Source: Janthinobacterium sp. GW458P | GTDB taxonomy: Bacteria > Pseudomonadota > Gammaproteobacteria > Burkholderiales > Burkholderiaceae_D | Assembly (NCBI RefSeq): GCF_002127585.1 | Contig: NZ_NEGZ01000013.1 | Span: 1-64,000, forward strand | Length of the DNA stretch: 64,000 nucleotides | Reading direction: 5' to 3' | In this document: positions 50,301 to 54,572 of the stretch, piece after piece | Layout: every line of letters starts with the position of its first letter | Numbering within the stretch: the stretch's first letter is position 1 | The notes under the pieces: model-generated | The model's database searches: none | What the model was told of the DNA's origin: nothing | What the model saw: the letters and a program-made list of their open reading frames with translations, nothing else | Translations under genes and position numbers: made by a program

Positions 50301-50427
50301 CATCATGGGCGGCCTGATCCTGGCGACGGCATTGACGTTGCTGTTCCTGCCGGCCCTGTATGCGGCCTGGTTCCGGGTCAGGAAGCCGGAGGCGGCGGCA
50401 AGGGAAGTGAGTACGCCAGCTGTGTAG
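47317..50427 (+). CDS. RND efflux transporter permease
   Basis: A 1036-residue resistance-nodulation-division pump. It has the expected twelve membrane helices, two large periplasmic loops and the RND motifs in helix 4 (GLLVDDAIIAVEMMVRKMEEG), which carries the proton-relay Asp pair. Later helices include GVIALFGMIIRNSVILVDQIEQ, whose Asn-Ser-Val and Asp-Gln pattern marks the second half. It resembles the AcrB/MexF-like family broadly, but the exact subfamily is uncertain. It overlaps the adaptor gene by four bases. Substrates unknown. Confidence 0.94.
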   Translation: MKGGFNLSRWALEHIPLTRYLMAVLLIGGMLSYASLGQDEDPPFTFRAMVLQAYWPGATALQMAEQVTDKLEKKLQETPYINEITSYSKPGETLILLELRESAPPKETAAAWYQVRKKIGDIKGTLPAGVVGPFFNDEFGDTYGSIFALSGDGFTYAEMKDYADKVRQELLAVGQVSKVELFGVQDEKINVIFSHKKFAQLGIPFDAIVQQLSEQNSINATGVLVTPTDNLQVRVTGAMVTVKDLENLELRANGTTFRLGDFATVKREFVDPPKDKMRFNGKEVIGLGVSMEKGGNIIDMGKALQATVTRMKGELPVGIELQRVSNQPEAVSASVGEFVHTLIEAILIVLAVSFVALGLHTKPLRIDVRPGLVVALTIPLVLAVTFLCMRLLDIDLHKISLGALIIALGLLVDDAIIAVEMMVRKMEEGYSRFDAATFAYTSTAMPMLTGTLITVAGFLPIGLAKSAAGEYTFSLFSVNALALIISWVVAVVFTPYIGYVLLKVKPHAHNDHELFDTPNFRRFRRTVAWCVEWRKTTIAATLAIFALGIYGFNFIEKQFFPDSSRPELMVELWSPEGTTFAANEKQVKKFEAFVGKLDGVESVTSYVGTGSPRFYLPLDQIFPQTNVSQVVILPKSLADREQLRQKIIDVFKKDFPEVRGRVKLLPNGPPVPYPVQFRVTGPEVAGVRAIADQVKDLMRANPNTLGVNDNWNESVKVLRLDLDQDKMRALGVTSKTVMQAANTILSGTVIGQFREDNKLIDIQVRQPLEERATISVLNDTNIPTAKGKSVPISQLARVHFVWEPGVVWRDKREWAITVQSDVVDGIQGATVSTQLAPQLDALRATMPDGYRITVKGVAADSGEAEASIAANLPLAIFIIFTLLMLQLHSFSRSLLVFLTGPLGVAGAAFALLLLHRPLGFVANLGVIALFGMIIRNSVILVDQIEQDIKDGSTPWDAIIDSAVRRCRPIVLTAAAAALAMIPLSRSVFWGPMAVAIMGGLILATALTLLFLPALYAAWFRVRKPEAAAREVSTPAV

Positions 50428-50483
50428 TGCCCTGGCGGGTGGCCGCATGGCGCATGCGCCGGTTCCCCCGGCCGGCGAAAATG

Positions 50484-50537
50484 CCGGGGTCGTACCCTGA
50501 GGGTGCGACCCCGGTGCTTGCTTTTGGGGTGAAAATG
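50484..50537. repeat. GGGGTCG/CGACCCC palindromic intergenic element, copy 1
   Basis: A dyad with arms CCGGGGTCG and CGACCCCGG around TACCCTGAGGGTG (50484-50514) is followed by a conserved tail ending in TTTGGGGTGAAAAT. The same arms and tail recur at 62664-62754 with an extra hairpin inside. It sits just after the RND pump gene. Confidence 0.65.
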
Positions 50538-50579
50538 CCGCCGACTGGCCGGTGGCGCTGCTCCCAGGCGCAGCAAAAA

Positions 50580-50622
50580 AAAGGCGGCATTCCTCTGGGA
50601 AATCCAGTAGAATGCCGCCTTT
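50580..50622. terminator. Long-stem bidirectional terminator
   Basis: A perfect 13-base stem (AAAGGCGGCATTC with GAATGCCGCCTTT) with a 17-base loop, flanked on the left by an A run of nine and on the right by TTTGCTTT. It can end the RND transcript and, on the minus strand, transcripts from the HExxH unit direction. Confidence 0.8.
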
Positions 50623-50740
50623 GCTTTACCGAGCGCTTGCTCCGGGCTTGCTCAATGAGTCCGCGGTAGCCAGATCGCTCCCGAGTTGTTAAAATCAGGG
50701 GTGGCAGCAAAGTGGTATGTACAAGCTGCATACAAAAGAT

Positions 50741-50823
50741 GCGGATGTGGTGGAATTGGTAGACACGCTGGTCTTAGAAGCCAGTGCTTCGGCTTGGGAG
50801 TTCGAGTCTCCCCATCCGCACCA
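50741..50823 (+). tRNA. tRNA-Leu (anticodon UAG)
   Basis: An 83-base tRNA with acceptor stem GCGGATG pairing CATCCGC, a long variable arm and an encoded 3' CCA. The anticodon loop CTTAGAA carries TAG at 50775-50777, which reads CUA (and wobble CUN) codons. The T arm GGGAG-TTCGAGT-CTCCC is normal. Confidence 0.97.
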
Positions 50824-50891
50824 ATCCGGGTTGTTCCAGCCCGGACGTGCAGCGCCATCAAGTTTTTCCTTAGTGTTCCTCAGCCCATTCC

Positions 50892-52433
50892 TCAGCCCAG
50901 CGCGCCCAGTGCGGCCAGTTGTCGGCTCGACTGTTGCACCATCTGCATGATCAGCGCCTGCGCCTGCGGGTAGCCGGCTCTTTCCATCATCGTGACATCG
51001 TATGCCAGCGGCATGAGCGCCTGCAGCACCTGTTGCCGCGCCCGCGGCCAGCCTTGCGCCGCGTCAAGGGTGCAGGGCGGCATGTCCCTGTCCAGCAGGT
51101 GCAGGGCCGCCCGCGCCTGCGCCAGTTCCTGTTGCGCCGGCAATACGGGCAGGTCGCCGCGCGGCGGCGGCTGGCGCGCCAGATAGGTGTCGAGCTTGCG
51201 GCTTTGCCGCTCATACAGGTCGAGCAGCAAATGCACGGTGGCGCCGGCGGGCCGCGGTTGCGTGTCGAGTGCGTCGAGCACGGCCAGCAGCCAGTCCGTC
51301 ATGTGCCGCCCGGCCAGCCCCAGTTCCGGCCTGCTAGTGCTGTGCAATTGCTCGCCCAGGTAGCGGGCGCGGTCGATGGCGCGCCGGCTGCCGCTCATGT
51401 GCTGGCCGATGGGGCCGTACAGGGGCGCCAGCGCCGTTTCATGCCGTTCTGCAAGCAAACACAGCAGCGCTAAATGGACGTAGACGTGAAAGGCGGCCAG
51501 TGTGCGGTGTGCATCCCAGTATTGATTGCCGTCATCATCGGGCGCATTCCACAGCGAGCAGACCCTGGCGCCGTCCGCGCGCGCGTAGCCGGGCGCCAGC
51601 AGGCTGTGGCCGTGGCGGAAGTCGTACAGTTTCTGGTGCAGCGCTTCGTGCAGCAAGTGCTCGGCCAGCCACCAGGGATTGCCGATCAGTTCCTGGTTCA
51701 GGAAGAGGCTGCCATTGACGCGAAATTGCGAACTGGACGCCTTGCCGCGCCAGACGCCCAGCTTGGGAAACAGGGCGATCAGTTGAACGTGAGAAAGTGC
51801 GCTGGCCGTCAGCCGGGGCAGCAGGGTTTCCAGCAGGCACAAGCCGCGGCGCAGCAGCGCCCGTTCATGCGGCGTGGGCGTGGCCAGCGGCGCGCCGTAA
51901 TTGACTTCCATCACAGCAAGGAAAGCGGAAGCATAAGGCGTGCCATCCTGCCAGGCATGCCATATGTACGTGTCTGCTTCGCTGCCCGCGTCGGCGTCTT
52001 TGTCGCCCATGGCGCGCCGCTTCCGCTCTTGGTGCAGGCGCGCCATGGGCGGCAGATGGGCCGTCAGCGGGCCGCCGGGCAGGCCCGCGTCCAGGTGCGC
52101 GCTGGCCGCCTGGAACAGGGCCGCGCATTGCGGCAGCGGCAAGCCGTAGTCGTCGCCCAGGTGCAGCTGGCGCATGGCGTGCTGCACGGCGCAGCGCAGC
52201 ACGGTGTCGCCGGTCAGCTGGCGTTGGCGCGCGGGCGTCGCCCCGTCGAGCCGCCGCGCCAGCTGCCGCGCCGCGGGCATGCTGGCACCCACCTTGTGCA
52301 GCCGTCGCCGGTAGGCCACGGCCAGCTGGTCGCGGATATAGACGCTGTCGCCGAAGGCGCGGTGCCGCACCAGCGCCGTTTCGACGGCGTCGAGCACGTC
52401 GGGGCCGGGCAGGGCGGCGCGCAGCGAGTGCAC
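50892..52433 (-). CDS. HExxH-type putative peptide beta-hydroxylase (RiPP-like modification enzyme)
   Basis: A 513-residue soluble protein. Its centre holds a HExxH motif (HLLHEALHQKLYDF, His262-Glu263-His266). About 50 residues later comes a third likely ligand region, NQYWDAHRTLAAFHVYVH. This arrangement, with the Arg/His that could bind a co-substrate, matches what I recall of the aKG-HExxH-type peptide beta-hydroxylases, iron/2-oxoglutarate enzymes that look like metallopeptidases. Flanking regions are helical and His-rich. Upstream, 14 bases away, is a 60-residue peptide gene that may encode the substrate. The GTG at 52433 is the first codon after that gap and lacks a strong ribosome site, so translation probably depends on coupling. 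Confidence 0.72.
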   Translation of the reverse strand: MHSLRAALPGPDVLDAVETALVRHRAFGDSVYIRDQLAVAYRRRLHKVGASMPAARQLARRLDGATPARQRQLTGDTVLRCAVQHAMRQLHLGDDYGLPLPQCAALFQAASAHLDAGLPGGPLTAHLPPMARLHQERKRRAMGDKDADAGSEADTYIWHAWQDGTPYASAFLAVMEVNYGAPLATPTPHERALLRRGLCLLETLLPRLTASALSHVQLIALFPKLGVWRGKASSSQFRVNGSLFLNQELIGNPWWLAEHLLHEALHQKLYDFRHGHSLLAPGYARADGARVCSLWNAPDDDGNQYWDAHRTLAAFHVYVHLALLCLLAERHETALAPLYGPIGQHMSGSRRAIDRARYLGEQLHSTSRPELGLAGRHMTDWLLAVLDALDTQPRPAGATVHLLLDLYERQSRKLDTYLARQPPPRGDLPVLPAQQELAQARAALHLLDRDMPPCTLDAAQGWPRARQQVLQALMPLAYDVTMMERAGYPQAQALIMQMVQQSSRQLAALGALG

Positions 52434-52447
52434 GGGCGGGCGCCGCG

Positions 52448-52630
52448 TCAGGCGGCCGTCGGGTGGTCGTGGTCGTGGTGGCCGTCGCCCTTCATGCGCA
52501 ACTCCATTTCATCGACTTCCGTCTGGATTTTTTGCAGATCGTCGTCCGTTACGCCGTCGAGCAGGCGGCCGAGGACCATGTGCAGTTTGGCTTTGGCGTT
52601 GCTGGCGCTGCCGGGTGTGCTGTCGCTCAT
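52448..52630 (-). CDS. 60-residue candidate precursor peptide with His/Asp-rich C-terminus
   Basis: A small acidic peptide. The first 45 residues look like a helical leader (AKLHMVLGRLLDGVTDDDLQKIQTEVDEMELRMKG). The tail after residue 47 is Gly-Asp-Gly followed by HHDHDHPTAA, a cluster of four His and two Asp. The ATG at 52630 has a very good AAAGGAG eight bases upstream, and the stop is 14 bases before the HExxH gene. The layout of leader plus His/Asp core beside a probable peptide hydroxylase suggests a RiPP-type precursor. It could instead be a metal-binding helper of the enzyme. No cysteine, no signal peptide, no exporter nearby. Confidence 0.72.
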   Translation of the reverse strand: MSDSTPGSASNAKAKLHMVLGRLLDGVTDDDLQKIQTEVDEMELRMKGDGHHDHDHPTAA

Positions 52631-52941
52631 GATGTTTTCTCCTTTAAATTCACTTGGAGGGGAGGGCCGGGACTTAGGTTTGCCTGAAAAATGGCCAAAT
52701 TGAGGCAAATCAAAGGTTTTTTGCCCGAAATCTTCGCCGTGAGCGCATTTCTTTGTTTCGGACGGAGCGCCAGTTCGCATATACTAATGAACGAAGCAGG
52801 CTGGAAAGCCTGTCTCTGGCGAAATAATGAATGCCGGGGCAAGAGTAAAGACAGGGCAGACCCAGGCTGTGGCGATTCGTTCGTCACCGCTGGCATCCTC
52901 TGTGGCCGGGCCGCAAAGCCAGCCACTTCTCCGAAGTCCTT

Positions 52942-52950
52942 TGTTATAAT
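52942..52950 (+). promoter_or_regulatory. Extended -10 promoter candidate for tig
   Basis: TGTTATAAT is a perfect TATAAT with the TGn extension. It predicts transcription from about 52957, giving tig a 5' leader of about 275 bases that contains the structured element at 53025. No good -35 box is seen, as allowed for extended -10 promoters. Confidence 0.55.
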
Positions 52951-53024
52951 GCCACGCTTTACCGAATGATGGCCGGCCCTGCGATTTAATGAGAAGCATG
53001 GCTGGACGCTCGGAGCCCTGTCGC

Positions 53025-53111
53025 AGCATTGCAAGCGGCGGATTGTTTGGTGCCTGGTGCGGGTTTTCCCTCAGCCGGGTAGACCAGGTCCATCGTCCTG
53101 CTTGCAATGCT
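53025..53111 (+). ncRNA. Structured element in the tig leader (candidate)
   Basis: A perfect 12-base stem pairs AGCATTGCAAGC (53025-53036) with GCTTGCAATGCT (53100-53111) and encloses 63 bases. An inner helix CCTGGT/ACCAGG is possible inside, near 53052 and 53083. TTTT follows the closing stem at 53111-53114. It may be an attenuator, regulatory leader or short RNA ahead of trigger factor. No known riboswitch is recognised. The remaining bases of the 52631-53231 gap hold shadow frames only. Confidence 0.45.
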
Positions 53112-53231
53112 TTTACAGATGAATATGCGAGCGAGTGAAGCTGGACCCAGGTCTTGCCGCCAGTGATGGCGCAAGGGGTCGGGTCTTCTTCTCTCGTACC
53201 AACAGTGTTTATTTTTTGGACGATTTTTTAC

Positions 53232-54572
53232 ATGGCAACTGCAGTCGAAACCTTGGGCAAACTCGAACGTCGTATCACGATCTCCTTCCCGCTGACGGAC
53301 GTCCGCACGGAAGTTGAGAAGCGCCTGAAAGTGCAAGCCCGTACGGCTAAGGCACCGGGCTTCCGTCCGGGCAAAGTGCCGTTGAAAATGGTCGCAGCAC
53401 AATACGGCTACCAGATCGAATCCGAAGTGCTGAACGACAAAGTCGGCCGCGCTTTCAACGACGCCGCCAACGAAAACAACCTGCGCGTGGCCGGTTTCCC
53501 GAACATCGTGCCGAAAGAAGAAGCGGCCGAAGGCCAGCTGGCTTTTGACGCCACGTTTGAAGTGTATCCGGAAGTCGCCATCGGCGACCTGACGGCCGTT
53601 GAAATCGAAACCGTGCAAGCCGATGTGTCGGAAGCCGAAATCGACAAGACCATCGACATCCTGCGCAAGCAGCGCGTGCACTTCCACACCAAGGGCGAAG
53701 CTGGCGAACACGGCGACGGCGGCGAGGCTATCGCTGCCAACGGCGACCGCGTGACCGTCGACTTCGTCGGCTCGATCGACGGCGTTGAATTCCCAGGCGG
53801 CAAAGCTGAAGGCTACGCTTTCGTGCTGGGCGAAGGCCGCATGCTGCCGGAATTCGAAGCAGCGACCCTGGGCCTGAAAGTAGGCGAGTCGAAGACTTTC
53901 CCGTTGTCGTTCCCAGAGGACTACCACGGTAAAGACGTGGCCGGCAAAACCGCCTCGTTCACCATCACGCTGCAAAAGCTGGAATGGGCGCACCTGCCGG
54001 AAGTTGACGCCGAATTCGCCAAGTCCCTGGGCGTTGCCGATGGCGACCTGGCCAAAATGCGCGAAGACATCAAAGTCAACCTGCAGCGCGAAGTCGCTGG
54101 CCGCGTGAAAGCACGCAACAAGGAAGCCGTCATGGACGCGCTGATCAAAGTTGCTGAGCTGGAAGTGCCAAAAACGCTGATCGCCCAGGATTCCGAGCGC
54201 CTGGCCGAAATGACCCGCCAGGACATGGCGCAGCGCGGCATGAACGTCAAGGACGTGCCTTTCCCGGCAGAACTGTTCGCGGAAAAAGCCGAGCGTCGCG
54301 TACGCCTGGGCCTGATCCTGTCGCAGCTGGTCGGCGACAACAAGCTGCAGGCTACGCCTGAGCAAGTCAAGGCGCAGATCGAAGATTTCGCCCAAAGCTA
54401 CGAAGATCCGCGCGAAGTGCTGAAGTACTACTACAGCGACCGTCGCCGCCTGGGTGAGATCGAAGCCCTTGTTTTGGAAGAAAACGTCGTCACTTACGTG
54501 TTGGGCCTGTCGAAAGTCACGACGAAAGCAGTTGCTTTCGACGAACTGATGGGAAGCAACGCACAAGCGTAA
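53232..54572 (+). CDS. tig: Trigger factor
   Basis: A 446-residue ribosome-bound chaperone with peptidyl-prolyl isomerase activity. The ribosome-binding N domain has GFRPGKVP (the FRKGKVP-type loop), and the FKBP domain spans about residues 160-240 ([23 protein letters not shown]). The C-terminal domain is helical. The ATG at 53232 starts MATAVETLG, the normal TF start; a GGAC lies some 13 bases upstream, so translation initiation may depend on the leader. It begins the tig-clpP-clpX-lon-hupB series, all plus strand, as in most proteobacteria. Confidence 0.97.

Follow-up and report, generated by a model that had tools for sequence, protein, structure and literature searches.

Two adjoining genes in the window, by which we mean the whole analysed stretch of 64,000 nucleotides from Janthinobacterium sp. 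GW458P (contig NZ_NEGZ01000013.1), probably make a modified, perhaps metal-binding, peptide. Judging from the two sequences and by analogy with the superfamily of the enzyme, we hold with moderate confidence that they form a minimal two-gene RiPP-type cassette, in which a divergent Fe(II)/2-oxoglutarate oxygenase would hydroxylate His and/or Asp of the peptide tail. The peptide gene precedes the enzyme gene, and 14 bases separate the stop codon of the former from the GTG start codon of the latter. The features of the locus are as follows.

50892-52433, minus strand: enzyme gene, 513 aa, predicted divergent aKG-HExxH-type peptide oxygenase (TIGR04267 at E 2.4e-7 and 30.9 bits, and subfamily profile)
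51636-51650, minus strand: HEALH, predicted metal-binding motif at enzyme residues 262-266, carried by 10 of 10 relatives aligned over their full length
52448-52630, minus strand: precursor-like peptide gene, 60 aa, with variable N-terminus, conserved leader-like stretch, variable linker and C-terminal GHHDHDHPT
52457-52483, minus strand: GHHDHDHPT tail, peptide residues 50-58, proposed core and modification target, identical in 15 of 17 genomes
52639-52645, minus strand: AAAGGAG ribosome-binding site of the peptide gene, eight bases before its ATG

Gene pair and layout of the peptide

A frame check bore out what the preliminary description had read from the letters, namely a 513-residue protein with HExxH at residues 262-266 and further His residues behind it, preceded by a 60-residue His/Asp-tailed peptide with an AAAGGAG site and a 14-base gap. 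The weakest detail is the GTG start of the enzyme: the open frame runs on upstream (538 aa), and the start differs among relatives. The window peptide ends in GDGHHDHDHPTAA, that is, in GHHDHDHPTAA. In an alignment of 11 intact peptide rows (A4), from which the decayed rows of genomes G136 and G589 were excluded, a variable start is followed by a conserved part reading KAKLxMVLxxLLDxVxDDDLxxIQTxVDExE, then by a variable linker, GHHDHDHPT and two variable residues (AA, VA, RA, LE or VE). A conserved leader and a conserved core are thus joined by a variable linker, as in a RiPP cassette. The GGAG of the ribosome-binding site is kept in 13 of 15 aligned rows, which come from 11 genomes; it is replaced by GGAA in L007 and L016, both one contig of genome G136.

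The pair is flanked by tig, clpP, clpX and lon on one side and by tRNA-Leu and an RND efflux pair on the other, all on the plus strand. The earlier statement that no exporter or protease lies nearby needs qualifying, as these housekeeping genes and the RND pair adjoin the locus; what holds is that no gene dedicated to leader removal or export of the peptide was recognised among the neighbours, in a search that covered part of the open reading frames of the window. Nor did the neighbours include a recognisable second tailoring enzyme. The Rfam search of 50400-53300 gave no element over threshold except the tRNA, and promoter and terminator scans yielded nothing informative. One copy each of peptide and enzyme was found in the genome at E 0.001.

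Linkage and selection in Janthinobacterium

As proposed in the preliminary description, we checked whether the peptide gene is conserved beside the enzyme gene in related genomes. Both genes were found adjoining in 17 of 40 Janthinobacterium genomes and neither in 22, and one genome held a contig-end enzyme fragment alone; the peptide profile matched 17 and the enzyme profile 18 of the 40. Among the 37 most complete genomes, peptide and enzyme counts were equal, at 17 each. The peptide gene stands next to the enzyme gene in all 17 peptide-bearing genomes and in 17 of the 18 enzyme-bearing ones, the eighteenth being that with the fragment. This genome, G594 (83% complete), retains 177 C-terminal residues of a distant enzyme relative (L062:1495-2028, 32% by tblastn) at the end of a contig other than that of tig; the upstream side of the fragment is missing, and it is therefore uninformative about a peptide there.

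The pair occupies one site, in the order tig, peptide, enzyme, tRNA-Leu, RND, in all 17 genomes that bear it, and these are the same genomes for both genes. Where the empty site was read (14 of the 22 lacking genomes), it was clean in every case: with the tRNA-Leu seed 709-829 bases ahead of tig, no room is left for the operon. On this clean absence in the 14 genomes read, a mobile element was set aside as the source of the pair. On a tree of 31 genomes, the presence of the pair required 9 changes, 3 of which were forced by well-supported branches; the tree derives from the tig region by a quick method, has many open forks and includes G190 with one third of the columns, and such change counts do not separate gain from loss. 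Peptide and enzyme genes are inherited as a unit and come and go together in Janthinobacterium.

Both genes are under purifying selection. In the 36 pairs among nine close genomes, the peptide showed a dN/dS of about 0.14, an estimate that rests on few sites, and the enzyme one of about 0.24. In nine pairs with G190, which is more distant, the values were 0.22-0.43 for the peptide and 0.34-0.44 for the enzyme, a small gap which counts against the proposal. The two genomes with an altered GHHDHDHPT, G136 and G589, hold pairs that look like decaying copies. In G136, where the GGAG is also altered, the tail reads SHPAPA and the peptide dN/dS against ten others is 0.51-1.69; the enzyme frame is open despite the lost tail, with a dN/dS of 0.30-0.43 over 11 pairs. 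Unless the G136 enzyme has already fallen idle, this genome argues that the tail is not strictly required. G589 has a shortened tail, HHDHPT, and a truncated enzyme whose match to the profile begins at position 169 and whose motif reads HESPH.

Kinship of the enzyme and relatives outside the genus

A scan of the window enzyme against NCBIfam returned one family, TIGR04267 (aKG-HExxH-type peptide beta-hydroxylase), and a Pfam scan returned none up to E 1. The 30.9 bits of the TIGR04267 match lie below the curated cut-off of 40, as do the scores of three other Janthinobacterium enzymes (30.7, 35.3 and 37.4 bits) and of a relative from Streptomyces xanthophaeus (32.8 bits); the cut-off is passed by relatives from Nonomuraea gerenzanensis (41.8 bits, alignable over the full length at 32% identity), S. 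goshikiensis (65.6 bits) and S. globosus (54.8 bits). Profile-profile comparison with seven canonical TIGR04267 members gave E 4.3e-7 and 2.5e-8. A wider subfamily profile, built from the Janthinobacterium enzymes and the relatives from Streptomyces, Nonomuraea and the lanthipeptide clusters, found a single chain up to E 10 among solved structures, namely ChlH (8s5f; E 0.0029, domain 0.028), which the S. goshikiensis relative as lone query also found (E 0.0039). A genus-only profile of 11 Janthinobacterium enzymes found nothing credible among solved structures, ChlH included, which counts against the proposal. All 11 Janthinobacterium rows and all 8 rows of the wider subfamily keep H262, E263 and H266; the same motif in a 16-row alignment trimmed around HExxH agrees by choice and adds no support. 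With regard to the third metal ligand and 2-oxoglutarate binding, the 8 subfamily rows also share R310 and H316 without exception, but these do not align with conserved residues of canonical members. The AlphaFold2 model of the enzyme has a mean pLDDT of 50, too low to be of use. Of the earlier assignment to the aKG-HExxH family, the kinship stands, by the TIGR04267 match, the profile-profile comparisons and ChlH, and full membership does not, given the score below the curated cut-off. On these sequence comparisons, we treat the window enzyme as a putative divergent subfamily of the aKG-HExxH superfamily, not as a curated TIGR04267 member.

Searches with the enzyme scored at most three candidates per genome, so that misses are possible. 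They matched the window alone among 398 phylum genomes, nothing outside the genus among 392 family genomes, and one other, weak match among 399 order genomes, the canonical TIGR04267 protein of G214. A weak family match in G026 (E 7.9e-4, residues 91-174) was dropped, as later profiles did not recover it. No credible relative of the peptide was found on plasmids (best E 4), and P0003 as query matched itself alone. The enzyme matched two plasmid records, from S. xanthophaeus and N. gerenzanensis (31% identity).

The S. xanthophaeus plasmid enzyme shares 46.7% identity with the window enzyme over residues 14-414 (78% of the query). Directly upstream of its gene (L105; WP_262002766.1, WP_272264026.1) lies that of a 67-residue peptide which carries GGHHHHHDDDEPD and ends in EAGGHHHHHDDDEPDVVDMGEVDQ; both proteins are annotated as hypothetical. 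The His/Asp tail thus recurs beside a related enzyme. The leaders of the Janthinobacterium and Streptomyces peptides are hardly alike, as 52 and 513 of 2000 shuffles reach the observed scores, which counts against a shared leader; together with Nonomuraea, the five comparisons gave 52, 513, 27, 34 and 203 of 2000 shuffles, and a shared leader is not claimed. Between the Streptomyces genes lies a very stable hairpin (L105:8872-8930; -36.8 kcal/mol, z -5.5), which is perhaps a partial terminator, and no strong hairpin was found at the corresponding junction in the window. Such a hairpin between precursor and enzyme genes is an established means of producing the precursor in excess over the enzyme. 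A methyltransferase gene adjoins the Streptomyces pair on the other strand, and the gene table there, which is incomplete, shows no RiPP annotation.

The S. goshikiensis and S. globosus relatives lie inside annotated class I lanthipeptide clusters. None of these two or the Nonomuraea HExxH gene is preceded by a His-tailed small open reading frame, which counts against the proposed link. In the two Streptomyces clusters, a 45-residue open reading frame precedes the HExxH gene (L107:6655-6792, L108:5359-5496); it is annotated as hypothetical and is alike between the species. The Nonomuraea locus (L106:8753-15466) holds, unannotated, a small open reading frame, the HExxH gene, a gene for a 193-residue protein that is rich in Cys at its end, and genes for a lanthionine cyclase-like protein and a lantibiotic dehydratase. 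Two Rhizobium plasmids (L112:3295-5597, L113:3379-5714) carry a radical SAM gene that overlaps an HExxH gene by a few bases, with hypothetical proteins nearby.

In a survey at class level, 10 of 369 genomes matched TIGR04267, that of the window included. One locus with flanks of 1.5 kb was inspected in each of the nine others, and a His-rich upstream peptide was found in one, G879, where a 102-residue peptide with GHHHSDSIGSHHHHD precedes the HExxH gene. The enzyme of G879 scored 40.7 and 37.7 bits against TIGR04267 in two scans (cut-off 40) and was found in no other of 60 family genomes, which weakens the case from this pair. The locus (L110:1957-7850, minus strand) comprises in one run the His-rich peptide, the HExxH protein, a 284-aa protein matched in neither Pfam nor NCBIfam, a methyltransferase and two MacB-type permeases, and is a candidate RiPP cluster of its own.

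As a control for the rarity of such tails, we counted them among mechanically listed open reading frames. A His/Asp/Glu-rich tail was present in 3 of 1257 frames of 35-150 aa from 15 HExxH-bearing loci, and all three belong to the 23 frames directly upstream of an HExxH gene. An earlier set of 15 loci, with frames of up to 150 aa, gave 3 of 1014. In the second set, L110 replaces L042, L112 and L113 were added, and L044 and L045 were left out, two weak TIGR04267 loci in whose listed frames HExxH is missing; L046 is in neither set. A narrow run with frames of 35-90 aa from seven loci gave 0 of 715, because frames were measured from the first possible start, which excluded even the window peptide. 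The tail criterion was written after the window and Streptomyces peptides were known, and therefore only the G879 peptide came from the scan itself; the Streptomyces peptide had come from enzyme homology. The hypergeometric value computed for the second set takes no account of this and is given no weight.

The preliminary description had held that HExxH homologues elsewhere with no peptide beside them would speak against the proposal. Inside the genus such genes are absent, apart from the contig-end fragment of G594; outside it they do occur among more distant relatives. The link between enzyme and peptide is therefore a property of the subfamily, not of the whole family.

Proposed reaction, alternatives and known systems

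The pairing of the genes, their linkage, the selection on both, the kinship of the enzyme and the recurring tail are direct findings; by analogy with the superfamily, we infer the use of iron and 2-oxoglutarate, the hydroxylation, the target residues and the function of the leader. The peptide would be a precursor with a leader that binds the enzyme, formed by residues from about 13 to 44, and with the C-terminal GHHDHDHPT as core. The two His of HExxH would hold the iron, and the enzyme, using Fe(II) and 2-oxoglutarate, would place a hydroxyl group on the beta-carbon of at least one His and/or Asp in the tail. The hydroxylated His/Asp peptide may stay inside the cell, or general proteases or exporters may release it. 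Metal binding as the purpose of the product is a conjecture from the composition of the tail. More tentatively still, Janthinobacterium and the Streptomyces plasmid could carry a self-sufficient two-gene system that turns the tail into a run of beta-hydroxy-His and/or beta-hydroxy-Asp residues and so makes an intracellular metal-binding RiPP without an exporter or protease of its own, with the oxidised histidine cluster as the functional unit; we regard this extended reading as possible, though doubtful.

The enzyme might instead cleave the peptide backbone, oxidatively or hydrolytically, and so trim or amidate the C-terminus in the manner of PflC. PflC and PosC, which belong to the same superfamily, are reported to hydroxylate Gln and to cut the backbone at a C-terminal motif; without its leader, PflC acts as a protease (PMC12636437). 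The small residues that end the tail after HHDHDHPT, invariant in most rows, would suit such a reaction, but the last two residues of the peptide vary, unlike the conserved ARMD motif described there (PMC12636437), and we consider cleavage in place of simple hydroxylation unlikely.

A further reading takes the peptide as an unmodified His-rich protein for metal binding or delivery, and the HExxH protein as the enzyme that receives the metal or as a zinc peptidase by which the peptide is broken down. The composition of HHDHDH would allow metal binding, HExxH is also the zincin motif, and no second tailoring enzyme accompanies the pair. Against this, the kinship of the enzyme is to aKG-HExxH oxygenases and ChlH, and its relatives are located in RiPP clusters; a metallopeptidase was rejected, as neither a Pfam family up to E 1 nor a peptidase among the solved structures matched by the subfamily profile was found. 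This reading, too, appears improbable. Finally, the peptide might have an accessory or regulatory role, with the true substrate encoded elsewhere. In favour of this, the small open reading frames upstream of the HExxH genes in the lanthipeptide-linked relatives are not the annotated lanthipeptide precursors. We consider it still less likely in view of the single copies of peptide and enzyme in the genome, the invariance of precisely the leader-like stretch and the tail, and the recurrence of the tail beside the Streptomyces enzyme.

Two further readings were rejected: anti-phage defence, as PADLOC matches neither protein, and an origin from a phage or virus, as the Streptomyces relative (P0004) used as query had no phage match and 25 pattern matches in viral contigs included no relative. 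In a literature search that covered mostly non-subscription papers, judged by title and the start of the abstract, nothing was found describing this pair, nor joining Janthinobacterium, RiPP and HExxH, nor joining beta-hydroxyhistidine, precursor peptide and metal. If tail hydroxylation is correct, the pair would be a very small setting for aKG-HExxH chemistry, with one enzyme, a short peptide and a conserved target of nine residues. It would bear on whether the His/Asp preference reported for ChlH exists without a preformed cyclophane and on whether bacteria make hydroxylated His/Asp peptides for metal handling. A His/Asp tail beside a related enzyme, as in Streptomyces, also provides a search rule for more such systems.

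Among solved structures, the closest known system is ChlH from Chlorogloeopsis (PDB 8s5f), the sole chain found by the subfamily profile, which shares HExxH with the window enzyme. ChlH is reported to act on a precursor peptide, in which it hydroxylates His and Asp (PMC12636437), in agreement with the earlier proposal of these residues as plausible targets. Its substrate already holds a cyclophane made by a radical SAM enzyme (PMC12636437), whereas the surroundings of the window pair showed no recognisable radical SAM gene. The similarity of the two enzymes is weak, and 22nu/22ob, matched as well by canonical members, are missed by the subfamily profile.

PflC/PosC, PesO and the predicted aKG-HExxH enzyme BpmH, all from MNIO-type RiPP clusters, belong to the same superfamily by their authors' naming (PMC12636437, PMC13060819, PMC12257519). 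The pfl and pos precursors are reported to have an N-terminal leader and a C-terminal target, as proposed for the window peptide (PMC12636437), and PesO is reported to target Pro, earlier members of the superfamily having been found to act on His, Asp, Phe and Gln (PMC13060819). For the enzymes of MNIO-type clusters, the targets reported there are Gln and Pro, in contrast to the His and/or Asp proposed here. Their settings are also larger in these accounts: pfl has an MNIO-nitroreductase, a GNAT protein and two transporters, with no protease described nearby, pes has an MNIO, a nitrile synthetase, two peptidases and a transporter, and bpm has an MNIO and a TldD-type peptidase, whereas the window holds two genes only.

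The HEXXH proteins of S. goshikiensis and S. globosus (FDLD-type class I lanthipeptide clusters) and of Nonomuraea share 25-32% identity with the Janthinobacterium enzymes. They stand beside LanB and LanC, and in two of the three cases beside a sulfotransferase, which sets them apart from the window pair. The S. xanthophaeus pair differs from that of the window in its hardly similar leader, its intergenic hairpin and its methyltransferase neighbour, but shares with it a related enzyme and a His/Asp-tailed peptide directly upstream.
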